Part shown: in pieces, positions 5,292 through 23,600 of the stretch
How positions within the stretch are numbered: the stretch's first letter is position 1
How the letters are laid out: each line of letters opens with the position of its first letter
IMG/VR virus record: IMGVR_UViG_3300046466_000194
Coordinates: 1-32,074 of that record
Direction: 5' to 3' (one strand)
Source: a virus
DNA length: 32,074 nt
Notes under the pieces: generated by a model
Told to the model about the DNA's origin: nothing
Seen by the model: the letters and a program-made list of their open reading frames with translations, nothing else
The model's database searches: none
Made by a program: the position numbers and the translations under genes

Positions 5292-6226
5292 TGACTAAAC
5301 CTGCATCTCAATACGCAACTACGATTGCAAAACCCACAACTCCAGATGAAACACAGGAGTTAACTGATAATCCTAAATTTTTAACATGGCATAAAGGATG
5401 TTTGACAAAATCAGAGATATATGAGAGACTATTACCAGATGGTGTATCTGGTGCATTACGCATAGATGGACCAGATGCCAGTTCAATAGTCCAAGATAGT
5501 CTAGGATGCATTAAACTTATTACAGGTCAAAGAAACAAAGAGAAGGGACCTGGTAGTGGTAAACTATGTGTTCATACTTGGGGTTATCAAGCAAAGCATG
5601 AATATAGATCTGATCTAGAGTTCATGGCAGGTGATGATAAAGAAGGTCAAGCATTAAACGTTCTGGTTGAGGGTGATTATGTTGAACAAACCAAAGGTGG
5701 TGAAAGATTCATCCGAGCACAGAAGATTATTATAGAAGCATCCGAAGAATTATTACTGATTGGTAAAACTCAGGTTAATATCCAATCAGGAACTGATGGC
5801 GGTGGTGCTATATACATGAATGCTGGTACTATTGAAAGAGTTACCGATAACGATAAGGAGATTATTACTGGTCAGAAGATGACATTTGGTGTCAGTGAAC
5901 AAACTGCTATCCAATTTGATCCTAGAGGATCACAAAATATTGTTTCTCCAGGTCACGTCAACCACTCAATTATGGGTGACTATAAACAGTGGATTGGTGG
6001 TATAGAGCAACATATTGTTGCTGGTGGTGTACCAGTACCACCATTGATCAAATCAAGAGACTCAGCATACTCTGTCAAAACTGTTATTGGTGGACAGAAG
6101 TATACCTCTGCAGACTTTATTGACAGCACAGCAGGATTGAATTACTCAGTTACTGCAGGTGGTGCTGCAAATATCACTGCTGCTGGTACAGTCAACATTA
6201 CAGGTGCATTAATTTTACTTAATTAA
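5291..6226 (+). CDS. Baseplate central spike / beta-helix tip protein
   Basis: A 311-residue protein starting at the ATG that shares its A with the preceding stop (TAATG). A TTG nine bases upstream is in frame but less likely. The first half contains an OB-like or gp5-like region ('GALRIDGPDASS', 'VEGDYVEQTKGGERFIRAQKI'). The second half consists of short alternating beta strands ending in 'AANITAAGTVNITGALILLN', the form seen at the end of gp5/VgrG-type triple-stranded beta-helix spikes. It probably forms the membrane-puncturing spike below the gp5-like hub. No separate PAAR tip is visible. The split between this gene and the OB-fold gene is discussed as a finding. The fold assignment is by pattern only. 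Confidence 0.62.
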   Translation: MTKPASQYATTIAKPTTPDETQELTDNPKFLTWHKGCLTKSEIYERLLPDGVSGALRIDGPDASSIVQDSLGCIKLITGQRNKEKGPGSGKLCVHTWGYQAKHEYRSDLEFMAGDDKEGQALNVLVEGDYVEQTKGGERFIRAQKIIIEASEELLLIGKTQVNIQSGTDGGGAIYMNAGTIERVTDNDKEIITGQKMTFGVSEQTAIQFDPRGSQNIVSPGHVNHSIMGDYKQWIGGIEQHIVAGGVPVPPLIKSRDSAYSVKTVIGGQKYTSADFIDSTAGLNYSVTAGGAANITAAGTVNITGALILLN

Positions 6227-6231
6227 AAACT

Positions 6232-6516
6232 ATGATTTTTTGGATTGGATTCTTCGTCATGTTCTTCAATGAAGGATTTGTTATGATGAGACACGTATCA
6301 CCTTTGTTCGCAAGACAAAGAGATAAATTTATTAAAAAGTATGGTGCTAATGTATGGTATAGATTCCATGGCACACTTGATTATACTTGGATGGGACTCG
6401 TGACTATTGGTTTAATAGTAAACTCAAGTAGAATACTACACATAATGGCATTGATAACCTTCTGGACATTATCTTTCATAATATTTTACTTACCTCGCTG
6501 GATTACACGCAAATGA
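6232..6516 (+). CDS. Small three-span membrane protein, unknown function
   Basis: A 94-residue protein I do not recognise. It has three hydrophobic segments (about residues 2-20, 52-68 and 70-88) separated by a basic, aromatic-rich loop containing 'ARQRDKFIKKYG', and ends in a basic tail (PRWITRK). This predicts an integral inner- or thylakoid-membrane protein with a cytoplasmic loop. It begins five bases after the spike gene stop and overlaps the next gene by four bases (ATGA), so it is likely co-transcribed with the baseplate genes and coupled to the next membrane gene. Lysis-related or host-membrane roles are possible from context alone, but no holin signature is visible. Confidence 0.6.
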   Translation: MIFWIGFFVMFFNEGFVMMRHVSPLFARQRDKFIKKYGANVWYRFHGTLDYTWMGLVTIGLIVNSSRILHIMALITFWTLSFIIFYLPRWITRK

Positions 6517-6752
6517 ACGACCTCACCGTCACAATATACTTGATAATGTTCGTTAGTCTCATGGGAGCAACATTTGCATTCATGTATACTATGATGGTAT
6601 CAACACTTAAAGATTTTAATGAAGTCAATAATCCCAGAAGACGTAGAGAGAAAACCGTATTACCAGCACCTCACCCTGAGATGGAAGGAGTTGCTTATGG
6701 AGAGGAATTGCTAGTATTCAGAAGCGAAGACGATGATTCAGACGATGATTGA
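6513..6752 (+). CDS. Small single-span membrane protein, unknown function
   Basis: A 79-residue protein with one N-terminal membrane segment (about residues 5-28, 'IYLIMFVSLMGATFAFMYTM'), a basic stretch 'NNPRRRREK' and a strongly acidic C-terminus ending in a run of Asp. The positive-inside rule suggests the C-terminal part is cytoplasmic. The start overlaps the upstream stop (ATGA). Immediately after the stop is a 6-bp hairpin, ATAAGT AAA ACTTAT (6752-6766), with no U-tract, so it may stabilise the RNA end rather than terminate. I do not recognise a function; pairing with the preceding membrane gene suggests the two products work together. Confidence 0.6.
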   Translation: MNDLTVTIYLIMFVSLMGATFAFMYTMMVSTLKDFNEVNNPRRRREKTVLPAPHPEMEGVAYGEELLVFRSEDDDSDDD

Positions 6753-6885
6753 TAAGTAAAACTTATGACAATGGTAAGATATACTCATTGACCAACTGGC
6801 ACAAGCCCCCTTGATTTTTGGGTAAATGTATCATAAATTACTTTTATAGCAGCAGAGAATAGTATCAAGTCTTTTAATAAATCAC

Positions 6886-6914
6886 TTGACGCCCTCTGCA
6901 TCATATGCTATAAT
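6886..6914 (+). promoter_or_regulatory. Strong sigma70-type promoter
   Basis: TTGACG (6886-6891) and a perfect TATAAT (6909-6914) are separated by 17 bp. Transcription should start near 6921. It is the best host-type promoter in the window and lies between late structural genes and the secreted porin-like gene, implying early or host-driven expression of the latter. Confidence 0.8.
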
Positions 6915-6926
6915 TTTCAAGCAATC

Positions 6927-6964
6927 GAGAAATCGGTTCTCCATCTGCGGGTAATCACTCCGCA
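6927..6964 (+). other. Two-hairpin 5' leader of the porin-like gene
   Basis: Two small perfect hairpins sit at the start of the predicted transcript. The first is GAGAA/TTCTC (6927-6931 with 6937-6941, loop ATCGG). The second is TGCGG/CCGCA (6946-6950 with 6960-6964, loop of nine). The ribosome site AAGG (6975-6978) and ATG (6990) are left single-stranded. Such structures at a 5' end commonly protect mRNA from decay; a regulatory role is inference. Confidence 0.5.
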
Positions 6965-6989
6965 AGTAAATTACAAGGTAAAAACAAAC

Positions 6990-7367
6990 ATGTCTATCAA
7001 ATCAACAATCGCTGCAATAGCAGCATCTCCATTCCTTCTCGCTGGTGCAGCTTTTGCTGGTCCTTACGTGAATGTTGAAGCTAACTCTGGTTGGACTGGT
7101 ACAAATTATACTGGTACTAACACAGACCTTCACATTGGTTGGGATGGTTCTCTTGGCGAAACTGCTTCATACTACGTACAAGGCGGTGCAACTGTAACAG
7201 CTCCTGATGGTGCTGATGGTGATACAGTTCCTTCTGGTAAGGCAGGTATCGGTGCAAGTCTAACTGAAGGACTTGGTGCATACGGTGAAGTTTCTTTCGT
7301 TGGATCAGGCGTAGAGAACGTTGACCGTGGATACGGTGCTAAAGCAGGACTTAAGTACAGCTTCTAA
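6990..7367 (+). CDS. Secreted, porin-like small outer-membrane beta-barrel protein
   Basis: A 125-residue protein. Residues 1-23 form a typical signal peptide: basic N-terminus (MSIK), a hydrophobic Ala-rich core, and an AFA site before Gly24. The mature part, about 100 residues, is made of alternating amphipathic strands ('YVNVEANSGW', 'TDLHIGWDG', 'ASYYVQGGATV', 'GKAGIGASLTE', 'AYGEVSFVG', 'YGAKAGLKYSF'). It ends in Phe, the classic terminal residue for outer-membrane barrel insertion. It is transcribed as a single gene between its own sigma70-type promoter and a UUCG terminator. Outer-membrane location is a prediction. Possible roles are altering host envelope permeability or blocking superinfection, and neither is shown by the sequence. 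The strand count fits a six- to eight-stranded barrel. Confidence 0.65.
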   Translation: MSIKSTIAAIAASPFLLAGAAFAGPYVNVEANSGWTGTNYTGTNTDLHIGWDGSLGETASYYVQGGATVTAPDGADGDTVPSGKAGIGASLTEGLGAYGEVSFVGSGVENVDRGYGAKAGLKYSF

Positions 7368-7400
7368 GTTGCACACTTCAGTCTAATTTGATATAATAAC

Positions 7401-7425
7401 AGGGAGTCTTCGGACTCCCTTTTTT
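7401..7425 (+). terminator. Rho-independent terminator with UUCG tetraloop
   Basis: A perfect 8-bp stem, AGGGAGTC (7401-7408) with GACTCCCT (7413-7420), encloses TTCG and is followed by a T run. It lies 34 bases after the porin-like gene stop and should end that transcript. Confidence 0.93.
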
Positions 7426-7428
7426 ATT

Positions 7429-7435
7429 CTAAATA
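7429..7435 (+). promoter_or_regulatory. Possible phage late promoter (CTAAATA)
   Basis: CTAAATA lies directly after the terminator and 20 bases before ATG 7456. A start near 7441 would leave a leader of about 15 nt. The arrangement (terminator, then late motif, then gene) is what one expects for re-initiating late transcription, but the motif is short. Confidence 0.45.
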
Positions 7436-7455
7436 TTTGGGAATTGAATTCTAAT

Positions 7456-7755
7456 ATGCTATCAACTCAATACCGCCTTCGCTTAGAAGGCATATGCAAA
7501 GACATTGCTTCTGGCAGTGAAGTAAGTATAGATGATATGATATGGGCACAGAAATTAGCAAAATCAAATACTTCAGCAAGAGGTATGTTAAATCAAGCAA
7601 GAAGATTAAGTACAGATCCAACAGATTCTTTTCTGAATAACTTGAATATTGGAGACCCCGATTCAAGTAATCACCGTAGGGGTTTCGGATCTCCAGAAGA
7701 TGTGGTAGACTGGTTCCACCAAGAAAGATCTGACGATTGGAGACAGAGAGACTAA
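7456..7755 (+). CDS. Hypothetical protein, 99 residues
   Basis: I do not recognise this protein. It is soluble and mostly helical, with basic residues in the first half and an acidic/aromatic end ('SPEDVVDWFHQERSDDWRQRD'). ATG 7456 is preferred over an upstream in-frame TTG at 7444 because the latter sits too close to the putative late-promoter start site. The stop shares a base with the next ATG (TAATG), so the two genes are coupled. Its place at the head of a small-gene operon after a terminator suggests a phage accessory function. Confidence 0.6.
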   Translation: MLSTQYRLRLEGICKDIASGSEVSIDDMIWAQKLAKSNTSARGMLNQARRLSTDPTDSFLNNLNIGDPDSSNHRRGFGSPEDVVDWFHQERSDDWRQRD

Positions 7756-7952
7756 TGCCAACACAATCCGAATTAATGCATTATCGCTTACAGGCGATGA
7801 TACGTGAATACAATTTTCCCGAACTTCAGTATCTGGGTGTTAAACCAGATAGTATTGGTGTGGATCAACACTGGTATAGTATTAATGGTAATCCTGTTCC
7901 TGTTGATGCAATAACTGAACTAGAGGATGTCGAGGAGATAGAAGATACTTGA
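7755..7952 (+). CDS. Hypothetical protein, 65 residues
   Basis: An unrecognised small acidic protein. The ATG overlaps the previous stop (TAATG), with purine-rich AGAGAG just upstream. The C-terminus is a run of Glu/Asp ('ELEDVEEIEDT'). The stop codon TGA (7950-7952) is inside the -35 hexamer of the next promoter, so the gene ends exactly where a new transcription unit begins. Confidence 0.6.
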   Translation: MPTQSELMHYRLQAMIREYNFPELQYLGVKPDSIGVDQHWYSINGNPVPVDAITELEDVEEIEDT

Positions 7953-7977
7953 CAATATAGATAAAATTGGGTAAAAT
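7949..7977 (+). promoter_or_regulatory. Sigma70-type promoter overlapping a stop codon
   Basis: A perfect TTGACA (7949-7954) and TAAAAT (7972-7977) have a 17-bp spacer. The predicted start is near 7984. It would drive the microprotein, the 67- and 44-residue genes and possibly the oxygenase-like gene downstream. Confidence 0.7.
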
Positions 7978-7979
7978 GG

Positions 7980-8087
7980 ATGCACGACCACAGAATCGTT
8001 ATGCACTTACTTTTACCCATCATCTGTATTATTCTAATTAGTACAGCAATTGTTTACTCTGTTATTCAAAAGTATGACCCTCACTAA
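7980..8087 (+). CDS. 35-residue membrane microprotein (alternative start at 8001 gives 28 residues)
   Basis: A short frame from ATG 7980 (or ATG 8001) to TAA 8085-8087. It encodes a His/Arg N-terminus followed by one strongly hydrophobic segment (LLLPIICIILISTAIVYSVI) and a short polar tail (QKYDPH). The next gene's ATG (8074) lies inside its last codons, suggesting coupling. If the promoter at 7949-7977 is used, the start near 7984 favours ATG 8001. The single span resembles many phage and photosystem small membrane peptides, but I do not recognise a family. A continuous hydrophobic stretch and fit with neighbours support a real gene; its short length keeps confidence moderate. Confidence 0.55.
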   Translation: MHDHRIVMHLLLPIICIILISTAIVYSVIQKYDPH

Positions 8088-8277
8088 AACCGTAGAAGAG
8101 TCTTTAAGAGACGCACAATCACATATGCGTAATGCATTAGCATTCGCTGCAAGGAGTGAGAAACCTTATGTTAGTAAGCACATTGCTGATATGCTTGCTG
8201 GTATAGATAATCTCATCGATTCATCATTTTTACTTGATACACTAGAGGAATATAACAATGAAGAAGACATTCACTAA
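8074..8277 (+). CDS. Hypothetical protein, 67 residues
   Basis: An unrecognised small helical acidic protein beginning MTLTKTVEESLRDAQSHMRN. ATG 8074 is chosen over an upstream TTG at 8050 because the region upstream is better explained by the overlapping membrane microprotein. It overlaps the microprotein gene by 14 bases and the following 44-codon gene by 20 bases, both in different frames. Predicted amphipathic helices over nearly the whole length suggest a small helical bundle or a protein-binding partner. Confidence 0.6.
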   Translation: MTLTKTVEESLRDAQSHMRNALAFAARSEKPYVSKHIADMLAGIDNLIDSSFLLDTLEEYNNEEDIH

Positions 8278-8392
8278 AATTGATAAGAAAGGTCGTGAGG
8301 AGACATGGGAGTGGGAAGAGACTCCTGAATTAAAAGAGTACATCAAAAGAACAATGAAATCTAAGGTTTATCCCAAACCTATTCGTAAATGA
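8258..8392 (+). CDS. Hypothetical basic protein, 44 residues
   Basis: ATG 8258 opens a 44-codon frame encoding a highly charged peptide (MKKTFTKIDKKGREETWEWE..., ending KVYPKPIRK). It overlaps the upstream gene by 20 bases and meets the next ATG as ATGA (8389-8392). It fills what would otherwise be a 110-base gap in a compact operon. Coding density and overlap support it; the function is unknown. Confidence 0.6.
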   Translation: MKKTFTKIDKKGREETWEWEETPELKEYIKRTMKSKVYPKPIRK

Positions 8393-9000
8393 AGCATATT
8401 GAATTTCCTAACTACGGATTTATCTTTGATGAAATGCCTGATAGTGTTGTAAAGAAAGTTCGTAGTTTATGTTCAGCAGCAAAAGACTTTGGTAAATCTC
8501 AGAATGATAAACTTGCTGGACAGTTAGAGGAAGAGTGGTATATTAATCCTAAATTAATTGATCAGGAAGTTAGAGAGTATATTCTACAAAACGTTCGTGA
8601 TTATACTGAACGTTGGAATTATCTTGACTCTATGAGGGTAAACACTTCAGATCGTGTTATTGATATTGGTACCATGTGGGTTAATTATCAAAAGAAAACA
8701 GAGTTTAATCCAATCCATTATCATGATGGTGTGTTTAGTTTTGTTATGTGGATTGATATTCCTTTTTCATATGAGGAAGAGGGACAGATACCACTTGCAA
8801 AGAAATCTAATAAAGCACAGTGTGGTAAGTTTCAGTTCCACTATATTAACATGTTAGGTGGGATAACTAATCATGCTGTAGAAGCAAAGGTAGGTGATTT
8901 TGCTTTGTTCCCTGCTGGTTTAAATCATTCTGTATCTCCATTTTACACATCAGATGGATACAGAATTTCTGTCTCAGGCAATTTATATTATATTACTTAG
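8389..9000 (+). CDS. 2OG-Fe(II) oxygenase-like protein
   Basis: A 203-residue protein. The pattern resembles phage 2-oxoglutarate/Fe(II) dioxygenases: 'NPIHYHDGVFSFVMWID' (His110, His112, Asp113), then 'GDFALFPAGLNHSV' (His180), then 'DGYRISVSGN' (Arg192). The two His-containing motifs would bind iron and the Arg would hold the 2-oxoglutarate carboxylate. Length and C-terminal motif order fit the family. T4-like cyanophages carry many such enzymes, mostly with unknown substrates, so hydroxylation of a protein, nucleic acid or small molecule remains open. The start overlaps the previous stop (ATGA). Exactly which of His110, His112 or Asp113 binds iron cannot be settled from one sequence. Confidence 0.72.
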   Translation: MKHIEFPNYGFIFDEMPDSVVKKVRSLCSAAKDFGKSQNDKLAGQLEEEWYINPKLIDQEVREYILQNVRDYTERWNYLDSMRVNTSDRVIDIGTMWVNYQKKTEFNPIHYHDGVFSFVMWIDIPFSYEEEGQIPLAKKSNKAQCGKFQFHYINMLGGITNHAVEAKVGDFALFPAGLNHSVSPFYTSDGYRISVSGNLYYIT

Positions 9001-9028: not shown

Positions 9029-9313
9029 ATGGGTAATTTTAACAGGTATAGGGTCAGTAAAAAACATGTCTTTGTTGACAACGATCCAGTTTTGATGTAT
9101 TATGTAGAGAACATACCATTCGCCTTTGATTCCCTTGAAAAGGATCAGAGAGAAGATAAGTGGGTGTTATCTGAAGCAGCAATCAATGAAAGTTATACCT
9201 TAGATGATATTCTTAGGTTCTCTGATTACTTGGCTGCTGAAGAATGTCATCCAGTATTGTTTGACTTAGACCTAATTAACCCTGAAGTATTACCTGATGA
9301 ACACTTTTCTTGA
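9029..9313 (+). CDS. Hypothetical protein, 94 residues
   Basis: An unrecognised acidic soluble protein (MGNFNRYRVSKKHVFVDNDP...). ATG 9029 is preferred to an in-frame TTG six bases upstream. The last 17 bases overlap the CpeT gene, whose ATG (9297) is internal to this frame, so the two are probably translationally coupled. This conserved-looking pairing suggests a function connected with CpeT, but that is inference from overlap alone. Confidence 0.6.
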   Translation: MGNFNRYRVSKKHVFVDNDPVLMYYVENIPFAFDSLEKDQREDKWVLSEAAINESYTLDDILRFSDYLAAEECHPVLFDLDLINPEVLPDEHFS

Positions 9314-9833
9314 ATTATTTGAAGGCACTTTTGCTAACAGACGTCAAGCACAGAGTCATCCTACTCGTTATGCACACATTCGTGTTACACATCGTAGAGT
9401 TAAAGACAACAGGTTTTATGGTGAGCAAGCATACAATTATCTTTTGAATCGTCCTTACAGACAATTTGTTATTGACGTAATTGATGAGGGTGAATTCATT
9501 CGCCTTAAAAATTATGAGATTGTAAACCCCAGTTTATATGTTGGGTGTCAAAATCTAGAAAACCTTACCGATGATGTTTTAACATATCGAGAAGGTTGTG
9601 ATCATATTATGAAACAAACGGGAAAGTATTCCTTTGAAGGTAAGAACGATGGATGTGAATGTTATGTTCAACGTGGTGCCCAAAAGACCTATGTTGCGAA
9701 TGAAGTAAAACTCTCTAAAGAGCATTACAGTGTTTTAGACAGAGGTCTCCACGTTGATAATCATACGAAAGTATGGGGATCTGATTGGGGTCCATTTAAT
9801 TTTACTAGACAAGATGCTTCCGTACAATCTTAA
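9297..9833 (+). CDS. cpeT: CpeT-like phycobiliprotein lyase
   Basis: A 178-residue protein close to the usual length of CpeT/CpcT. Family hallmarks appear in order: 'FANRRQAQSHPTRYAHIRV' near residue 12, 'YGEQAYNYLLNRPYRQFV' near 40, 'LKNYEIVNPSLYVG' near 70, 'GCDHIMKQTGKYSFEG' near 100, and the end motif 'DRGLHVDNHTKVWGSDWGPF' near 147. CpeT proteins bind bilin chromophores and attach or chaperone them to phycoerythrin or phycocyanin beta subunits. The phage copy may maintain or remodel light harvesting during infection. It lies downstream of an overlapping 94-residue gene and overlaps the next gene by 20 bases. The gene implies a host with phycobiliproteins. The lyase activity of phage CpeT versus a purely bilin-binding role cannot be told from the sequence. 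Confidence 0.9.
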   Translation: MNTFLELFEGTFANRRQAQSHPTRYAHIRVTHRRVKDNRFYGEQAYNYLLNRPYRQFVIDVIDEGEFIRLKNYEIVNPSLYVGCQNLENLTDDVLTYREGCDHIMKQTGKYSFEGKNDGCECYVQRGAQKTYVANEVKLSKEHYSVLDRGLHVDNHTKVWGSDWGPFNFTRQDASVQS

Positions 9834-10927: not shown

Positions 10928-11118
10928 TTGTTGAATCGACGGGTTCGACAAGGGTGTGACAGAATAACGCTTGTGGAGGCACGGCGTATTGTATATTAGG
11001 ACAGGGGTGGTGCCCGCTGCGTATCGCAGAACCTTTACCATAGGGTCCGAAAGTCTGAGAGTCCTACTATTCACATTAGTGATTCCCTCTCAGTGAAGGT
11101 ATAATGTAATCCTTTCAC
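10928..11118 (+). ncRNA. Candidate structured RNA (five hairpins), unknown class
   Basis: This gene-free stretch is dense in pairing. H1: 10928-10937 with 10942-10951, ten pairs including two G-U, loop GACG. H2: 10967-10970 with 10984-10987 plus 10972-10975 with 10980-10983, one bulged T, loop GAGG. H3: 10999-11002 with 11045-11048, then 11008-11011 with 11037-11040, capped by 11017-11021 with 11025-11029. H4: CTGAGAG 11055-11061 with CTCTCAG 11087-11093, containing ACTA/TAGT. H5: 11093-11099 with 11111-11118, one bulge. No protein-coding frame of note is present on the + strand, and no U-tract follows H5, so the RNA may continue as the HNH leader. It does not match tRNA, tmRNA or a group I intron core that I recognise. 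Pairing is by eye. Confidence 0.5.
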
Positions 11119-11137
11119 CCACCACACAATTCAGTTA

Positions 11138-11206
11138 ATATCATGGTTACTCTGAGAGAACAACTACACTACATCTACATATGTGTTAGAGAAGTAACCT
11201 TGATAT
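11138..11206 (+). promoter_or_regulatory. Long stem-loop sequestering the HNH start codon
   Basis: Bases 11138-11151 (ATATCATGGTTACT) pair with 11193-11206 (AGTAACCTTGATAT) at 13 of 14 positions, enclosing a 41-nt loop with a smaller ACAC/GTGT pairing. The first two bases of the HNH ATG (11205-11207) and the entire ribosome-binding region lie in the 3' arm. This should block translation of the long transcript. T4 homing endonucleases such as I-TevI use comparable hairpins. Confidence 0.7.
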
Positions 11207-11555
11207 GCCTTACAAAAATAAAGAAGAAAATCGTAAATATCAGCGTGAGTGGGCTAGAAAGAATTCAAAGACTCGTAAAGCAAATCAAATTAGTCATAAG
11301 AGGAGAAAGCAGATAGTAGAGGATGCAAAGAAGCATCCTTGTATAATATGCAATAAAGATTTTAATCCTGTGGTAATGGATCTTATTCATGTGGATCCAG
11401 AACCTCAAAAATATAGTGTATCGAAGTTATTGCAGTATGCTAGTTACAAGACATTGAAGGAAGAAATAGATAAGTGTGCTCCAATATGTTCAAACTGCAA
11501 TAGATTACTACAGAATGGGTATGTAGAGCTACCCGAACTCGTTGTTATGCCATAG
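11205..11555 (+). CDS. HNH-family endonuclease, probably mobile
   Basis: A 116-residue protein with a very basic N-terminal helix (residues 1-45, 'NREENRKYQREW'-type charge), then the HNH core. The core has zinc pair Cys46-x2-Cys49, strand and 'MDLIHVDP' with His62, a helical linker 'SVSKLLQYAS', and second zinc pair Cys95-x2-Cys98 in 'CAPICSNCNRLL'. This follows the common phage layout C-x2-C, LDFHHxDP, CxNCHRxxH, except that the first His of the pair is Ile61, the terminal His is Asn99, and the final His is Gln103. HNN variants of the fold can be active, but this copy may have altered metal binding. It lacks any second domain. Small free-standing HNH genes in phages usually act in homing. 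It is preceded by a structured leader and a start-codon hairpin and followed by no obvious terminator. Confidence 0.82.
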   Translation: MPYKNKEENRKYQREWARKNSKTRKANQISHKRRKQIVEDAKKHPCIICNKDFNPVVMDLIHVDPEPQKYSVSKLLQYASYKTLKEEIDKCAPICSNCNRLLQNGYVELPELVVMP

Positions 11556-11652: not shown

Positions 11653-14600
11653 ATGCCATTAACACGTTTGGATAATCTTATCAGCAGTAAAACTGGTAAG
11701 TATCTTTATGTTTCACCTGATGATTTTAACGCAACGGATGCGTTATCAAACAGAGGTAATTCACCTGTAACACCATTTAAGAGTATTCAGAGAGCATTCC
11801 TAGAGATTGCAAGATACTCTTATCTACCTGGTTCAAACAATGATAGGTTTGACCAGTTCAGTATCATGTTGATGCCTGGCATCCATTATATTGATAACAG
11901 ACCTGGTCTTACTGATACTACAGGAATCGATGTATTTGGATTTGATCAAGCATCAAATGCATGGACTGATGATAGTATACTTGATATTTCTAATCCTGAT
12001 AACATACTCTATAAATTTAACAACACTGAAGGTGGTGCCATTATTCCTCGTGGTTCATCACTTGTTGGTTATGACCTAAGAAGAACTGTTGTAAGACCTC
12101 TATTCGTTCCTGACCCTACAACAACGGAACGTGAAATTCCTCGCTCTGCAATCTTTAACGTAACTGGTGGTTGTTACTTCTGGCAGTTCACTATTAAAGA
12201 TGGACAAACATCTGCTGAATCTCCCCTATTCAATTCCGTAGAAGGAACTGGTGAAGTATACTATGATCCTACTGACTTCACTAAGAAAGCAGCACCAAAC
12301 TATTCTCACCATAAACTAACTGTATTTGAATACGCAGACGCAGAAGAGTTGTCTCTATTCTACAGAAAGATTGCTAAGGGATTCTCATCATATCAACCTA
12401 CAATCGATGATCCTGGTGAGTTTTCTGCTAGAGTTCAAGAGAACAGAATTGTTGGACCTTTGTCTGACTCTAGAGTCGTTGAATCATTTAAGTTTAATGA
12501 TGCTACAACTATCCCTAGTATCCCTGCATCTACATCTGAAATTGAAGTAACAACTAAAGTTGACCATGGATATTTTGCTGGTCAATTTATTGCTATTTCT
12601 AATACAGAAATTGATAGTGTACTTGAGGGTATCTTCCCCATCAAACGTATTGATGAGAATGATCCTCGTAAGTTTACCTATGAAGTAGCAGAAGTTGTTA
12701 GTGCAATTGGTACTGGTATTGCAGCAGGTAATACTATTGATACTGGCACAACACCTGCACTAGGTGGTAACGCACTAGCATTAGCAGAAGTTGACTCTGT
12801 TGAATCTGCATCTCCATACGTATTCAACTGCTCCATCAGATCTACATGGGGTATTTGTGGTATATGGGCAAATGGTTTGAAAGCCACTGGTTTCAAATCA
12901 ATGGTTATCGCTCAGTACACTGGTGTATCTCTACAGAAAGATGATAGATCATTCATTAGATATGATGAGTATAGTAATACTTGGAACCAAGCATCACTTG
13001 TAGATGCATTTGCAACAGTACCTTATCACACTAAGGGTGATAGTTACTGGAAGGATGAGTGGAGAAACTTCCACGTTCGTGCATCTGAAGATGCATTCAT
13101 TCAGTGTGTTAGTATCTTCGCTGTTGGTTATGCTGATCACTTCCTAATGGAAAGTGGTGGTGATATGAGTATCACCAACTCTAACAGTAACTTTGGTAAT
13201 ACATCACTACATGCTATTGGTTTTAAAGGTTTCGCCTTTAACCAAGATAAGGGTGGTTACATTACTGACATCATCCCACCACAAGTAATTTCTACTGATG
13301 CTGCTAATGTCAAGAAGACTCAATATTATACTATTGATATTCAAGGCACAGTTGCTGATCCAACTAACTTCACTAAGTTGTTCCTAGGTAGTGATGACAT
13401 TGCAGATCCATTAAATCGTCCTGCTGTATCAATTGGTGGATATAGACTTGGTGCTAAGGGAGGAGAAAAACTATTTGTTAAACTAGATCCAGCAACTGCT
13501 GGTGGTACAGAAGAGTTTGATGTATCTCTAGAACCAACTGGTTTTGTTAAGTATATTGCAGCAGCATCTATTCTTAATCCTTCTGGATTTGCTTACAATA
13601 GCATATATGCTGACGCTGCTAACTTAATTGAAAGCAACCGCACGATGATCCAAGAGGAAGTCTTCGGTTATATTATTGAGAAATTCCCTGCATTACAAGA
13701 TCTTTCTTATGTTAATCCTGGTAGAGATCCTAATGCAAACCGTTACAATGATGCACGTAATCTCATCATCAGTAACAGACAAGATATTGTTAATGATACA
13801 TTAACATCACTTACTGCTTTTGAGCCTACTTCAACAGTTACTGCTGAAGATATAGGTGAGATGGTTGATGCTATTGCAGAAGACCTTAGAGATGGTGGTA
13901 ACTTTAATGTTATTACTTTAATTCAGTCATATTTTACTGGCACTGGTACTTTAATCAAGTATAACGGTGAGCAAGAGAATATTATCTGGGCAATGAACAG
14001 ATGTAGAGATCTGTGTAAGCAAGCATCATCTAACTTGTTAGCAGTTAAGGCAGATCTATTTGATCCAGACTCAGCTAGTTTACTTGCTCCTTATGGTGGA
14101 CTACCAATCGGTACTATCACTGCTGGTAAGACTGGTTCACAAGCAGAGGAAGATGGTGACACAACCAATGGTCTTACTCTTGACCCTGCACAGAAGATTG
14201 ATCCTGGTGCTAGGTTCAGAGATACTTATAGACTAATCAATAACAACAGAGATTATATCTTAGACAATGCACTTGCTGAGATTACAGTTTATGATGAGGC
14301 TCCATTCTACTACTTCCCTGGTGATCCACAAGAGACACAGTATTCAAGATTTAAGACTGCATATCGTTTGATAAGACGTAACAAGGAAGGTGCATTGGAT
14401 GCAGGTATTACAGCAATTCAGACACAATATCCAGCATTCCAGTTCATAGGTGGTTCACCTGAGAAGTGTAAGAGAGACCTAGGAATCTTCGTTGATGCAA
14501 TTGCAATGGACGTCTTCTTAGGCGGTAACGAGTGGACTATTACATTCATCGAGAAGTATTTTAATGGTGGTGGTGCTTGGATTGGTGGTGGATTAGAAGG

Positions 14601-17600
14601 AGAAGAGAATGAATCTATTGTTGGTTTTAATGGTGCTAGAGATTATCTACAGGAAGCAGTATCTAACCAACTCTCTAATGGGTATCAAGATAATACCCTA
14701 TCACCAGGTGAATCTGTCTATGGTGATGGTAATGGTGATGTAAGCAATACAGATCCTACTGCATGTACTGACGTTCAGAACGCAATTGCTACACTAACTT
14801 CTATTGTTACTCAGGTTATTAATGATGGTGATCCTGATACAGTTAGAAATCCTTCTAACCCTAATTACGTAAGTCCACAATCTCGTGTTCTACAAACAAA
14901 CGAGAACAAGTGTCGTAGAGACATTGCTTTCATTGTTGATGCAGTAATGCAAGATTTATGGTTCGGTGGTAATGCTTACTCTATCTCAATGGCAAAAACG
15001 TTCTTTGATCGTTTTGGCAATCCAATTAATAATGGTTTAGTTGGTGAGGAAGCACAAGCAATTACTGCATTTAGACGTGCTGCTAATGCTATTAATGATG
15101 CTATTAACAACCAATTATATTATTCTGATCAAGCAATTACTCTTGATACTGTTGGAGAACCTCCAATTGTATCTGATACTAATGCAGACGCAGCTCGTTT
15201 GCTTGATGGTAACAAAGAATGGTTAGCAGAGGAAGCATACGAGCGTATGATTGCTAATCCACTATACTCTTCTTATGAACCACAAGCCCAGAATACTAAG
15301 CAAGATTGTTTAGATGACATTGTTAATATCCTTGAGCAAATTACGTATGATATTAAGTTTGGTGGTAACGCTAAAACTTATGATTCTGCAGAGATTTACG
15401 TTACTAACGTCATGCCTTGGTTTGGTACTGACAAGAAGCGTAAGCAATTCACTCCAACAAATGTAACTTATACTCCTAACACTGGTGATCTAGTATTAAC
15501 TATTCCTGGTCATGATATGACTACGGGTAACTATGTTAGATTTGAAGACAATAGTTTGACCTTTACCTGTGGCATGGATAATAACCAGGCACAGAAGACT
15601 TATCCTCGTGCTGGTGCAGATCCTTCTGCTGGTAACTGGGTTCAAATTACTGCTGCTACTGCTAGTAGCATAACATGTAATGTTGGTGCAACTGGACCTA
15701 ACGTTAGTTACACTCCTACTAACATATTATACAACTCCACTTCTGGAGTGATGGAAATTACCGTCGGTTCTGGTCATGGATTGAGTGTTGGTGAAGGTGT
15801 GATGATTGCTAACAACTCTCTAACATTTACATGTGATCAAGATAGCAACCAAACTAACCACACATATCCTCGTGTTGGACAGGATCCTTATGCAGAACAA
15901 TCCTTTACTATTACTGCAATTAGCGTTAGCACTATTACTGTTAATGTTGGTGTTGCAGGAACTGCAGCTGGTGTACCACACGCATTTGTAAGTGCTTTAT
16001 CTGGTTGTGTTACTCATTCACCACAGACTACACATACATTTGTATCTGCAACAACTGACTGTGTTAATTATGGTTTAGCAGCTGCAACATTCATTGATCC
16101 TGAGCGTGATGAAGCAAAAGAAGTATTCAATCAGGTAAGAGCTCTTGTTCCTGATGTACTTAGAAATATTGAAATTATCAATACTGGTTCTAATACATTA
16201 CAACAGTTCACTGATGCTGCTATTGTTAGTGATTGGGGTGAAACTGAAGTTGGAACTCCTACTGATGCAACATATGATCCTGCTACTGGTATTCTTGCAG
16301 TAACTGTTACTGGTCACGGTCTTTCAAATGGAGATAGGATTCAATTCCTACAAGAATCTTTAACATTCACATGTGAGTGTGATGGTAACTATGAGAACCA
16401 AGTATATCCACGTACATCTGATCCATCATTTGACTCATGGTTAGAGGTTGCTAACGCAACTGTAGATACTTTTGAAGTTAATGTAGGTACATCACCTTTT
16501 GTTAACTATAACGTAACTAATGCAACATATGATGCTGCTACAGGTCTTCTTAATCTTAACATTGGTTCTGGTCATGGTTTAACAACCAATACAAAGATTA
16601 AGATTGCTGATAAGTCATTGAAGTTTAAGTGTTCAATGGATGATTATGGTTCAGTACATCATTATCCTAGATCAACTGACCCTGCAGCTGGTGAAGCATT
16701 AAACATTGTAGCAACAACATTTGAAACTATTACTGTTAATGTTGGTGCATCACCTCTTGTCACATACACTCCAACTAACGGTAGTTACGATCCTAATCTA
16801 GGATTGATGAACTTAACTATTGGTGGTCACGATCTACGTGGTGCTGATAGATATACTCCTAGCAGTGCAGCATACAATCCTACTTCAGGATTCATGACAA
16901 TAACCATTGCAGATCACGGGTTTGTAGATGGTGAAGTTATTCAAATTACTGATCTAGGATTAACCTTTAGTTGCCCTGCTGCTACTGGTCAACACCAATT
17001 CCAATCTGGTTCTAATAATGGTATTGTTGATCAAAACTTAGCAGGTTATACTGCAGGTGCTGGAACTACTTACAATCCTACTACTGGTGAATTGGTATTA
17101 GAGATTGGAGCACATAGTATAAATGCTGGACAGAATATATCGATTGCTAATGGTGCTGTTACATTCAGATGTGAGGCTGATAATTATAGCACTGATCATG
17201 CTTATCCTCGTGCTTCTGACCCCGTTGCTAACACACCTGTTTCTGTTGGTTCTGTAACTGCTACAACTCTTACAGTTAACGTTGGTGCAGCATCTGCAAA
17301 TAGTGGTCAAAGTTCTTATCCACGTGCTAGTGACCCTGTAAGTGGAATGTGGATGCCTATTTCAAGTGTAACTCAGAATACATTTGATGTACAGGTACTA
17401 GCAGATGCTCCTTCTACAAACACACAAGTCCATACATTTATAAGTGCTGCAACTGACTGTATTGTTAAACCTAATAGCACTATTAAGTTAGCTGATGATG
17501 CTGTTACATTTAGATGTACATATGGTAATGGAGTTCATGCATTTGTAAGTGGAACTACTGGAGGAATTACTCCTAATTCTGGAAGTGCTGTTACAGCAGC

Positions 17601-20600
17601 TGCTGGAACAACTTATGATCCTTCTAATGGAGTCCTTGAAATAGAGATTGGATCTCATACTCTAACTACTGCTAATACAATTCAGATTGCTAATGGTGCT
17701 ATCACATTTACTTGTGATGCTGATAACAATGCAACAGAACATGCATATCCACGTGCAACTGATCCTGTATCTGGTCAGACCCTTAACATCACTGCAGTAA
17801 CTGCTACAACCATCACAGTTAACGTTGGTATCACCAACGGTAGCTTGAGTGCTAAGTCTTATCCTAGAAATACTGTTCTTAATACTACAGTAACTTTTGC
17901 TGATTACGATCCTCAAACTGGTGTCATGGAACTTACTGTTCCTAACCATGGATTTAATAACGGTGAACAAGTTAAGATTGGAACTGGTTCATTAACCTTT
18001 ACTTGTGCTCAAGACGGTGATCAAACACAACACACATATCCAAGATCTTCTGACCCTGTAAATCAGAAGTGGTTGAAGATCTTTAATGTACAAACAAATA
18101 CTTTCCAAGTACAGGTATTAGATTCCATACCTTCTACTAACGTAACTAATCATACATTTGCAAGTGCAACTACTGATGGTCTAACATATAAGAAAGACCC
18201 ATTCTATGATAACTCTATCTACGTTTGGGATGTTCCAGAGACATCATTTACAGTAAGTGATGCATCATATGATCCTGCTACTGGTGTAATACAAGTCACT
18301 GCTAATGGTTGGGGTGGATCAAATGGTACTAGAGTTAAGTTTGTTAAGGAGTCTCTAACATTCAGTTGCACAAAAGATGGCAACGGAACAAACCATAGTT
18401 ACCCACGTGAGTCAGACCCATCATATGATGAGTGGTTATCTGCTTATGATTCTGATGTTAATGGATTTAAAGTTAACGTTGGTATTTCTGGTGTTAATGA
18501 TCAGTATGCACATACATTTGTAAGTGCTACTGCTCAAGGTGCATTAAGACAGGATCCATCTATTACAGTATTCATTGGTAAGTCTCCTACTGCTACTCAA
18601 CCTCATACATTTGTAAGTGCTCTTGCAGATTCAGTTAAAACTGGTGGATCATATACTCACGAGTATACTGGTGGTGTTGCAGCCAATGCAGTAATTTCAG
18701 GTGGTAACTATCCACATACATTCATATCTGCAACTTCTGGTGCTGTTAAGAAACAGAACGCTGCAGTTTGTGCTAACGTTATCTCTGCTGTACAGTCTAA
18801 CTTAGACACCATCATGCAGGCAATAGGATCTGACTCTGGTGTTGGTAACTTAACTGGTATCACCCGTACAACTCCTACTCAACCTGTAAGTAATATTCAG
18901 AACGGTGTTGACCAAGCATTTGTTGCTGGTAATTGTGCTGATGTTATTTCTGCTGTTAACTCACTGGTTGATATTACTGTTGAGGCACTCCTTGCAGGTA
19001 ATCTAACTGTTCTACCAGCACTAGATAATGGTCTCTATGATTGTGCTAACGTTCGTAGTAGTATTGAGAACCTATTTGATATCGCTGTTGATGCATTCAC
19101 AGTAAGTAATCTATCTCAATTACCTGTTCTTAATAAAGGATCCTTTACTAATGAAGCTCAAGTATCTACATGTTATCGTGACGTTGCATACATTGTTGAT
19201 GCTATTGTTGGTGACCTTAGACTTGGTGGTAACATCAACTCTGTACAGGCTGGTGAAGCATACTACGTAGGTAATAGTCTAGCCTTCATTGATAGTGAGA
19301 AGACTGAAACATTAGATGCATGGAACTACGTTGGACAGATGGCAACTGCTGCCATGAGGAACTTCGACTTCCTTGCATATAATTGTACAACCACTGCTGG
19401 ATCAGCAATCGTTGATGTTGGTGATACTCGTGGTATCATCATTGGTATGACAGTAACTGAGTACGATGATACTGATCCTTCTGCTCCTGCATATGTTAAT
19501 GGTGTTCTACAAACAGGTTCAACTCCTGTCTACACTACAATCGGTCAGAATGTATATGTTAAGAGAATTATTAACAATACTGAGATTGAACTTGGTGTAG
19601 AGAATTCCAGACTTGACTTCGGTCAGACTATAAATGCACAGCAGTCTAGTGGAACTATTGATCTGTTCTTTGACTTCCCTAGTGGTCAGTGGGCAGACAC
19701 ACTTCCTAAGACAGTTATCGTTGGTCCTGAAAGTATTAGTCCAGATATTATTGCTGATACAACTACTGGTAATGTCATCACTGATCCCGCTGATCCTAAT
19801 GTTGGTCAGCAGATCAGAGAGTGTGCTGGTACTGTAAATGCAATTGAGACATTAGTTAGTAACATCAACACAATTATTAACTCTGGTCCTGGAGCTGTTA
19901 CTAGACAAGAGCAGACAGCAAATGTATCTCTCTTCTCACAAAGAGGAACAGTATTTACTATTAATACCTCTGGTCTTGGTGGATCCAACCCACATCAATT
20001 TGAAACTGGAACACCAGTTAGATTGGTTCCACGTCCTCGTTTTGATGTTGATCTTGGTCAGTATGTTGATGTTGATAAGCGTCTTATTAGATTGCCTGAT
20101 GGATTTTCAACTAACGAAACTTACTATGTAATTGCACCAGGCAGAAAGACACAACCATTTGATTACTCTAACACTACATTCTTTAATGGTAGTGATCAGA
20201 CAAAACTGATGCTTGCAACTTCTAGAGAGAATGCAGCAGCAGGTATCTTCATCTATGCATCTGAAGCTGATAGCATTGATCCTAATGTAGAGATTGACAT
20301 CTATCAGTTCATACTTGATGAAAATTATGATTTACATCGTTATAAGTGTAAACTATCAACAACAGTTGTTGGTGGTATTACTACAGATGTTCCACACATC
20401 TTTGATGTACCATTCTCTTCTGTAACACCACATAAAGTATTCTTCAGGTCACTTGCACCAGATGATCTACCAACTATAGGTGAGCAAGAAGATGATAATC
20501 CAGAAGTTACTACTACTGATATCAATGATGATAACTTTGGTAGATTGAATCCAGTTAAGGAATTCTATGCACGTTATCAAACTGCTAGAGTCTTTACGAT

Positions 20601-23600
20601 CCATAAGTCACATGCTGATGCGATCAACAATGCTGATCCTATTCAATTTACTGCTGGACAGAGTGATGAATTTAATGTATTCTGTAACAAACGTCGTTCA
20701 CCTGTCAAGTATGATCCAACATTTAGTGTTGGTGTTGCTACTGAAGGTAAGTGGTATGTTGATTGTATTAATGAAGCAGATCCACAGAATGTAGTACCAA
20801 ATGTCTACAATAAGAATATCATCTGGAGATTAAAACAAGACGATTACTCTGATAGACCTAAGACTACTGATACGTGGTTCACACGTCTAGATGATAGTCG
20901 TCCTGCAGATGACAGAACATATAAACTACGTTATGTTATTCCTTCTTATCTTGAGAACGCAAGAGATCCTATCAATGGATTTGTTATCAAGACAAGAACT
21001 GACGACACACGTAAGTTAGTACCACAGAAAGTTCTACTAAAACCTGTTGCTGGTGAAGTATATGGTGCTAGATTTGAGAACCCAGTACAAGCTGGTGAAT
21101 ACATTGGTTACAAGTCAAATCAATTCCTTGGTAATGGATTAAATGAAGAAGATGCATATGATCCTTATAAGAATGATACCACTGGACAAGGTATTGAGTA
21201 CAAGGCATATGCCAGATTTAATTCTGGTATTCAAGCGACCATTCAATCTGCTCGTTATGTACAAGATCCATTAGTTCAAACTATTAGTTATCTAGAACTT
21301 GATGTGGTTGATCACACAGTTGATATTAAGAACTTCCCTGGTCTTAAGAATGAGCAGTTTACTACAGTTCAGATTAATGCACCACAAGGCGGTGATTGGG
21401 TAACCAATAAGACTGCTAGTATCACTGCTAACCAGGTCGAATGGACTGGTAACTCTTCAGGTATTGCAAATATCCATGGGTATTACGAAAATGCAGGTTC
21501 TCATTACCTAATTCTGAAAAATATTCGCGGCGGAAAATTAGAGTTCTCAGAGTTTTATAACACTAGATTTACTCAAGGTAGCACATTTGCTGATATGCTT
21601 GAGGATCAGGATATGGGTAAATCCCTACCACTCAAGACTCTTATTAAGAAGGGATATCCTGAGTATTATTATAGACAAAATGGTTCTAATGTTTACACTA
21701 TTACTCCTGGTGATAGGATTCAGGATAGTGCAGGTGTTGAATATTATGTTGCTAGTGTTGAAGATACTGGTATTATCGAAGATACATTCTACATCTTTAA
21801 CTACGAGACACTACAGAAGAGAATTTCAGGTCAGCAAGATGGTATTTACTACCTATCTTGTCTACGTGGTAACATTTCACCATTACCTCAAGGTGCTGGT
21901 GCAGGTGGTAACTTCCGTGACTTCCAGTTCTCTCAACCAGTTAGCAGTCTCTATCCTCTGAACTATAAGAACGATCCTCTTTGGTTCCAGAAGGCAGGTA
22001 CAACTGCAGAAGAGAAGAATGTTAAACAACAATTAATTGATCCACCAGCAACATATTCTGCTGCTGATAACTATACTCATGGTCTAGTTAGAACTAACGA
22101 TTACAAGAACTCTGTAACAAGAGAACTTGTTGAAGACTTTATTGTACAACCAGCATTTATTGAGAATGATTATCAGGGTACATCTGCTATTAGAGCACTT
22201 CCTGGTAATGCAACTTCAGGATCTGAAGATCGTCGTATTCCTATTTCTGGTACAAGTACAGTTCTTGTAGATCAGAAGTATTATGTTGAACTTAGACGAC
22301 CATCTATAGCAAGAGCTGGTAACCACACATTTGAATATCTTGGTTTTGGTCCAGGTAACTACTCAACTGGTCTTCCAGCACGTCAGGAGATCGTTCTAAC
22401 TCCTACAGAGGACTTCTACGCCCAAAGTAAGAAACAGAACGCTGGTATCGTCTTCTATACGGGTCTAAACTCCAATGGTGATCTCTATATCGGTAATAGA
22501 AAGATTAATGCTATTACTGGTCAAGAAACATACTTAGAGGCAGCAGTTCTTAAGGACAGTGACGATGATGACGAGGATATCGGTGATCTAGTTACATCGT
22601 TCGATACTCCTGTAACATTCAACCAGAATATTACAGTTGTTGGTGGCGATGGATCACTTCAGAACGTATTCCAGTCTCCTTTAGTTGTATCTGTTCAGGA
22701 TAATGATCTAACTCAGTCTAGAGATGCATTAATCATTAGATCCAATGTATCATCTGTTGATCCTGTAACTAACTTACAACAAGATGAAGGACTAGACAGA
22801 ACTGCATGGACTGGACCTGGTAATCCTTTAGATGGTGATATTCGTATCAGTAAGAACAGAGTAGATGCTGCAGTATTTGGATTCAATTCTAGAGGTAAGG
22901 GTCAAAAGTATCAGATTCAGACACATACTAGCTCTGGTCTTCCTTCTAACATTACACCTAATAACAATGAGCTCGTCAATATTGATCCTAATACAGGTAT
23001 TAATCTTGGTGGAAGCAAAGTAGAAGCTAATCAGAGCGTAAACTATGGTAGTGTTCAACCAAAATCAGGTGACATGCTACTTAAGGGTCTTGAAGTTGGT
23101 AAGACTGGTTCACTTGGTTGGATATATGCTAACTACTTTAATCAAATACCTGCAAACAATATCTTTACGATTGAGTTTGATGGTACTAACGTAGTTAAAT
23201 TAACATTCAAGGATATTCAAGGCAATAATATTGCTAACTCTTCAATTGGTATTAGTGATGTATCACAGATTAAATTAACTAATTTCAGTAATCCATTATT
23301 AAATTCTTCATGGTTGGTATTCTCCCCTAATGGTGATGCATTCAGTTCTTCCAATAACTATGTTCACTTCCAAGTTAATAATGGTATTGGTATTGATGTT
23401 CTATCTTGGAATGGTGCTGGTGGTGTACTTGATACTGCTCAGACAAATGGAAATCCAGTTCCTATAGTTGAGTTTTCTAACTCAAATTGGAAAGAGTATG
23501 GTGTACTTGGTGCTGAAGCACTCAGAACTGAAACTGAAACTATTGGTGATTACAAACTTGGTGTTAACACTGTTGCAAGAACTGAACATCCATCTGCTCT

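Follow-up and report, generated by a model that had tools for sequence, protein, structure and literature searches.

The window, as we call the whole stretch of DNA analysed here (32,074 nt), gave DNA and protein matches to Synechococcus and Prochlorococcus phages. These matches mark it as part of a T4-like cyanophage genome, in keeping with the phage origin claimed by an earlier sequence-only reading. A small cassette lies between 6886 and 7426:

6886–6914, +: sigma-70-type promoter TTGACG-17-TATAAT with extended TGn (consensus scan, 11/12)
6914–6977, +: entire leader RNA element (cmsearch, 59.7 bits)
6923–6938, +: HP1, the leader's 5′-terminal hairpin, AAUCGA-GAAA-UCGGUU (covariation, 55 sequences)
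6942–6945, +: CAUC, single-stranded linker preceding HP2 (invariant alignment columns)
6946–6964, +: HP2 hairpin, UGCGGG-UAAUCAC-UCCGCA, followed by an invariant AG at 6965–6966
6975–6978, +: AAGG, probable ribosome-binding site 11 nt 5′ of the AUG (sequence)
6990–7367, +: Phage_OMP gene, 125 aa (PF24653, 6e-47; phrog_417, 2.7e-50)
7401–7426, +: intrinsic terminator with UUCG tetraloop (scan: 8 pairs, loop of 4, T-run)

The promoter comprises TTGACG (6886–6891), a 17-nt spacer and TATAAT (6909–6914), with TGC at 6906–6908. In the consensus scan it was one of the two top-scoring sites in 5500–9000 and the only one of the two with TGn; +1 is predicted near 6921. Residues 1–23 of the encoded protein form a signal peptide with an AFA↓GPYV cleavage context that is conserved in relatives, and the mature part is encoded by 7059–7364. 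The terminator reads AGGGAGTC-TTCG-GACTCCCT followed by a T-run. One flanking ORF ends at 6752 and the next starts at ~7456; both fall outside 6886–7426, and the cassette therefore stands alone and is monocistronic. The sequence-only reading had described a complete expression cassette with a signal peptide and a UUCG terminator, and all of these parts were found.

The Phage_OMP family and its fold

The protein belongs to PF24653, Phage_OMP (159.3 bits against a cut-off of 27, model positions 2–122 of 122), and to phrog_417 (2.7e-50), and it did not differ at the protein level from this family, with which it shares signal peptide, size and C-terminus. Using tblastn, we found the family in 421 phage records (a redundant count), all of them named cyanophage, marine or uncultured. 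The C-terminal residue was F in 148 of 153 distinct relatives. The family appears as DUF680 or PhCOG173 in papers and as T4-GC_241 in genome notes. Pfam searched at E up to 0.1 returned only PF24653 and no DUF680 model, so the annotation name DUF680 is unsupported by present Pfam; NCBIfam held no family for either the phage or the host protein. The protein family is thus already known, whereas the leader RNA is absent from the RNA catalogue that we searched (Rfam). The Pfam description line of PF24653 mentions neither the leader RNA nor the reading as six strands and half of a host barrel, and in the open literature we found no paper on the leader RNA or on Phage_OMP biochemistry.

AlphaFold2 (46 sequences) produced a monomer model with six strands and a mean pLDDT of 92.3, and hydropathy showed alternating hydrophobic and polar faces in all six strands across the family. 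The top PDB fold matches were all outer-membrane proteins, among them OmpX, OmpA, Ail and the designed barrel TMB2.3 (best E 0.022; TM-score to OmpX, normalised to query length, 0.62). In BFVD, most matches at E up to 0.001 were named cyanophage relatives. The search for a solved homologue by sequence yielded nothing beyond a weak autotransporter match (E 0.49), which we discarded. The protein is thus modelled with high confidence as an outer-membrane-type six-strand meander. The sequence-only reading had proposed structure modelling as a check, with a non-barrel fold as the outcome that would count against it; an outer-membrane-type meander was predicted.

Like Phage_OMP, the best structural matches OmpX, OmpA and Ail have amphipathic membrane strands, but each of them is built from eight strands and is about 147 residues long or longer, compared with six strands and 102 residues in Phage_OMP. 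Six strands also fall short of the ~16 per chain of general trimeric porins and are therefore too few for a conventional porin. No membrane barrel formed by one chain in natural outer membranes is known to have as few as six strands. Of the porin-like protein with a short barrel ending in Phe that was proposed earlier, the outer-membrane-type beta protein and the C-terminal Phe stand, but 'porin-like' would apply only to an oligomer.

A conserved leader RNA tied to Phage_OMP

Of 200 shuffled sequences, 196 folded less well than the window leader (z −2.65). We aligned 55 leaders from relatives, mostly IMG/VR contigs, by sequence, and the RNAalifold consensus consisted of two hairpins, in which 10 of the 12 pairs changed in a compensatory manner. 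Double-sided changes occurred in all six pairs of HP1 and in four of the six pairs of HP2, in which 98.8% of cells were paired. Over the leader alignment, 166 double-change cells were observed against 50.5 in shuffles, and pairing in 94% of cells fell to about 50% after a one-column slide. With the window's near relatives left out of the covariance model, 6914–6977 was still recovered at 47.5 bits (E 4e-11), the next match having E 0.46. Covariation and shuffling confirm the two leader hairpins claimed by the sequence-only reading, and the leader is thus a genuine structured RNA. Its elements follow each other in the order HP1 (variable stem, loop often GUCGA), CAUC, HP2 (YGYGGG...UCCRCR), AG, ribosome site and AUG. 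The ribosome-site region was mostly unpaired (mean 0.62), and the position of AAGG held AAGG or GAGG in many relatives.

With Rfam 15, the leader had no match at gathering score, and a permissive threshold gave only chance-level matches (E 3.4 and 7). Likewise, no Rfam match was found at the leader in the loci of seven relatives. Identity with a known riboswitch was rejected for want of any Rfam match. In the window, the HP2 loop sequence GUAAU could by eye form a pseudoknot with a downstream AUUAC, but most relatives do not keep this pairing, and it was rejected.

A leader-only pattern matched 120 times in IMG/VR, and 106 of these matches preceded Phage_OMP. The remaining 14 contigs lacked the gene, and 13 of them had no covariance-model match at E 0.01, the exception being L174 with a marginal 20.9 bits. 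With a pattern for the second leader class, 110 of 120 IMG/VR matches preceded Phage_OMP. Whole T4-like cyanophage genomes carried one leader each, immediately 5′ of Phage_OMP, with second-best matches at chance level; in one phage record an equal-scoring match occurred twice, probably at a duplicated end. In the whole phage genomes searched, we found no convincing leader upstream of other genes. Genomes with two Phage_OMP copies (P-SSM2, G204 and G205) had one leader, and in the T7-like phages 9515-10a and S-RIP2, where Phage_OMP adjoins psbA, the leader was absent. We also searched 201 host-family genomes and obtained a single match, which sits on a phage-sized 189-kb contig of a single-cell assembly; a host origin of the leader was therefore rejected. 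The neighbourhood of the cassette varies among phages (gp5 side, nrdC side, talC/pstS side), indicating that leader and gene travel together as one cassette. The co-occurrence of promoter spacing, both hairpins and gene in hundreds of phages puts the cassette far beyond chance.

Promoters were compared in 145 distinct upstream regions of relatives. A TATAAT-like box was present 7–11 nt 5′ of HP1 in 63 of them, compared with 6% in shuffled sequence, and these 63 regions included 60 with TGn and 43 with at least 5/6 matches at −35. In 60 of the 63 class A sequences the −10 box lies 8–10 nt 5′ of HP1, a spacing that would place the transcript start 2–4 nt 5′ of this hairpin. The other regions have different promoters, often with an extra hairpin ahead of HP1. 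About half of the relatives have such a hairpin upstream, and HP1 is therefore not always 5′-terminal. Late-type ATAAATA boxes, as described for cyanophages (PMC2984593), were frequent in relatives with and without the TATAAT-like box; none was found in window positions 6601–7000. The earlier claim of early expression had the sigma-70-type promoter as its sole basis; this promoter is present, but many relatives carry the late-type box also or instead. Since HP1 and HP2 are kept under different promoters and also behind an extra upstream hairpin, their role would be post-transcriptional.

Host relatives and a phosphate-side paralogue

PF24653 matched in 33 of 201 host-family genomes and in none of 14 control genomes. 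Two strong host-family matches were phage-like (G001, G069). A 2.4-Mb host-family chromosome contig (L236; G118:C1:132523-132861) carries a Phage_OMP copy disrupted by in-frame stops, which is a probable relic of phage DNA. The other host frames were roughly 150–390 aa long, mostly 260–340. Five host ORFs of 260–283 aa hold the Phage_OMP unit twice in tandem, and a Pfam scan of one such protein returned two PF24653 stretches. As read by eye from translated sequences, the tandem-unit genes adjoin a gene for a CobW-type GTPase and in some cases also a Fur-family regulator gene, and a relative of greater length, whose loop is rich in His/Asp, lies directly 3′ of a znuA-like gene. The znuA gene of Synechococcus WH8102 is followed by synw0972, which encodes a Zur-repressed protein of unknown function (PMC9337993); from its context, the longer relative may be synw0972-like.

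The host zinc-locus outer-membrane proteins thus share a sequence unit with Phage_OMP, although their sequence homology to the phage protein is weak. The host proteins are single chains of 12-strand size, some with His/Asp-rich loops, whereas the phage chain has one unit. Since the host proteins are tandem duplications of this unit, a phage chain probably corresponds to one half of a 12-strand barrel. Of the two roles suggested by the sequence-only reading, altered nutrient uptake and exclusion of other phages, this kinship leans towards the first.

Some phages carry a second, leaderless Phage_OMP paralogue (AGPYVSTKSEF...) near the leader-bearing copy:

L208:2586-2942, leaderless paralogue
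L156:5069-5434, leaderless paralogue
L199, start near 2654, − strand, leaderless paralogue
L095, start at 9391, leaderless paralogue

In P-SSM2 this paralogue adjoins the leader-bearing copy and lies just 5′ of pstS, with a Pho-box-like CTTA-N7-CTTA upstream (consensus in PMC3037559). The phosphate link of the literature may concern this pstS-side paralogue and not the leader-bearing copy.

Possible functions of leader and protein

We tentatively favour a reading in which the leader is a post-transcriptional protector and Phage_OMP an outer-membrane half-barrel whose dimer forms a pore that alters solute entry. The cassette would be a portable, monocistronic expression unit of T4-like cyanophages. 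With the transcript starting about 2–4 nt 5′ of HP1, as promoter spacing suggests, a stable hairpin would cap the 5′ end. HP1-CAUC-HP2 would then act in the mRNA, most likely by blocking 5′-end-dependent decay (RNase E), and would leave the ribosome site accessible, which could allow a high yield of Phage_OMP. The signal peptide would export the protein and the C-terminal aromatic beta-signal would direct it to the host outer membrane, where it may sit as a six-stranded amphipathic meander. There it would most likely pair with itself (2 × 6 = 12 strands) into a small pore, because it corresponds to half of the host's duplicated zinc-locus barrel, and this pore could change solute entry during infection.

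The mRNAs of the ompA type carry a 5′-terminal stabilising stem-loop. The likeness is that the cyanophage mRNA, too, encodes an outer-membrane-type protein and has a hairpin predicted to lie within about 2–4 nt of its 5′ end. In contrast to ompA-type leaders, the cyanophage leader has an unrelated sequence, a conserved loop and linker and a second conserved hairpin. Its stabilising role is putative, as is the stable, abundant RNA suggested by the sequence-only reading.

HP1 often has a GUCGA loop, and the unpaired CAUC and the AG never vary, which is more conservation than mere stabilisation by a hairpin would require. These features would fit a sensor leader that adjusts translation of Phage_OMP to a metabolite, a metal or the stage of infection, either as a riboswitch or by binding a protein of phage or host, autoregulation included. 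Class II leaders, found in Prochlorococcus-type phages (L004–L006, L208–L210 and L241–L357), have an extra conserved 5′ hairpin, HP0 (AGG..CGAAAGAUCG..CCCUGYG). In each of the 41 class II leaders examined, at least 6 of 7 pairs can form between the 3′ strand of HP0, CCCUGYG, and the 5′ strand of HP2, so that the RNA could adopt either of two folds that exclude each other. Across these 41 sequences, however, the alternative pairing did not covary, and our search pattern had fixed part of HP2, including the strand involved; a switch is therefore only a possibility, and the class II leader a possible bistable RNA. Known cis-regulatory RNAs of cyanophages include manA (PMC2864571), which also occurs in the window. 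Like the manA and wcaG motifs (PMC2864571), the leader is a conserved 5′-UTR RNA of T4-like cyanophages, but it is without Rfam similarity and tied to a single gene. Against a sensor, the element is very small, has no conserved junction or pseudoknot, leaves the ribosome site accessible in the predicted fold and controls only one gene. We regard a sensor as possible but doubtful.

The protein might instead act in phage competition at the cell surface, by masking or altering receptors (superinfection exclusion) or in release, rather than as a pore. The outer membrane is the natural site of exclusion proteins, and published evolution data bear on this question. During evolution of phage S-TIM4, ORF224 (DUF680) gained 13 mutations, many of them disruptive, only on Synechococcus WH8102, where their cumulative frequency approached 100% (PMC6224464). 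We found that ORF224 belongs to the Phage_OMP family and carries the leader. The sweep of frame-shifts, nonsense mutations and deletions (PMC6224464) establishes only that Phage_OMP is dispensable and disfavoured on WH8102 in a host-dependent manner, as expected for a gene useful only in some hosts or settings. A role in competition nevertheless appears unlikely to us: the host relatives sit in zinc-uptake neighbourhoods, and the P-SSM2 paralogue beside pstS, with its upstream Pho-box, points to nutrients.

More improbable in our estimation is a combined reading, in which the leader would represent a cyanophage regulatory RNA of a new class, acting as a sensor with a bistable Prochlorococcus-phage form, and Phage_OMP would be a natural half-barrel, two chains of which build a 12-strand pore that is related to the host zinc-locus barrel and might form hybrids with it. 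That the protein is a minor virion component is very improbable. Two peptides of the S-SZBM1 DUF680 protein were detected in a virion preparation (PMC9146016), but outer-membrane debris is a common contaminant, a signal peptide and a C-terminal aromatic beta-signal are unexpected in virion proteins, and the S-TIM4 study classed the family's protein as non-structural (PMC6224464). Single hairpins of this size are common, and the region has four terminator-like sites against 1.6 expected, but an origin of the leader hairpins as chance features of an AT-rich leader can practically be dismissed, being refuted by the strong covariation and the one-to-one tie to the gene.

Phage_OMP is among the commonest unknown-role genes of ocean cyanophages, and a conserved leader RNA missing from the catalogue offers a direct way into the questions of when the protein is produced and to what end. 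The link to the host zinc locus leads to testable hypotheses on a phage-made outer-membrane pore, the nutrient that it serves and a natural two-chain barrel. Zinc is a candidate nutrient, as is phosphate for the Pho-box paralogue. If confirmed, the favoured pore reading would provide a case of a marine virus remodelling the outer-membrane traffic of its host.

The window contains further features. A complete manA RNA (RF01745, 108.6 bits) lies at 10929–11125 (+), 5′ of the ORF at 11205–11555. Two auxiliary genes encode a 2OG-Fe(II) oxygenase (8389–9000) and a CpeT-like antenna protein (9297–9833), and a single ORF of 4932 aa spans 11653–26451; the gene in the matching place of ACG-2014h is annotated as tail fiber-like. 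Outside the window, a phage-sized contig of a Prochlorococcus single-cell assembly carries a near-threshold glutamine riboswitch (L210:1424-1475; 33.9 bits against a gathering score of 35).
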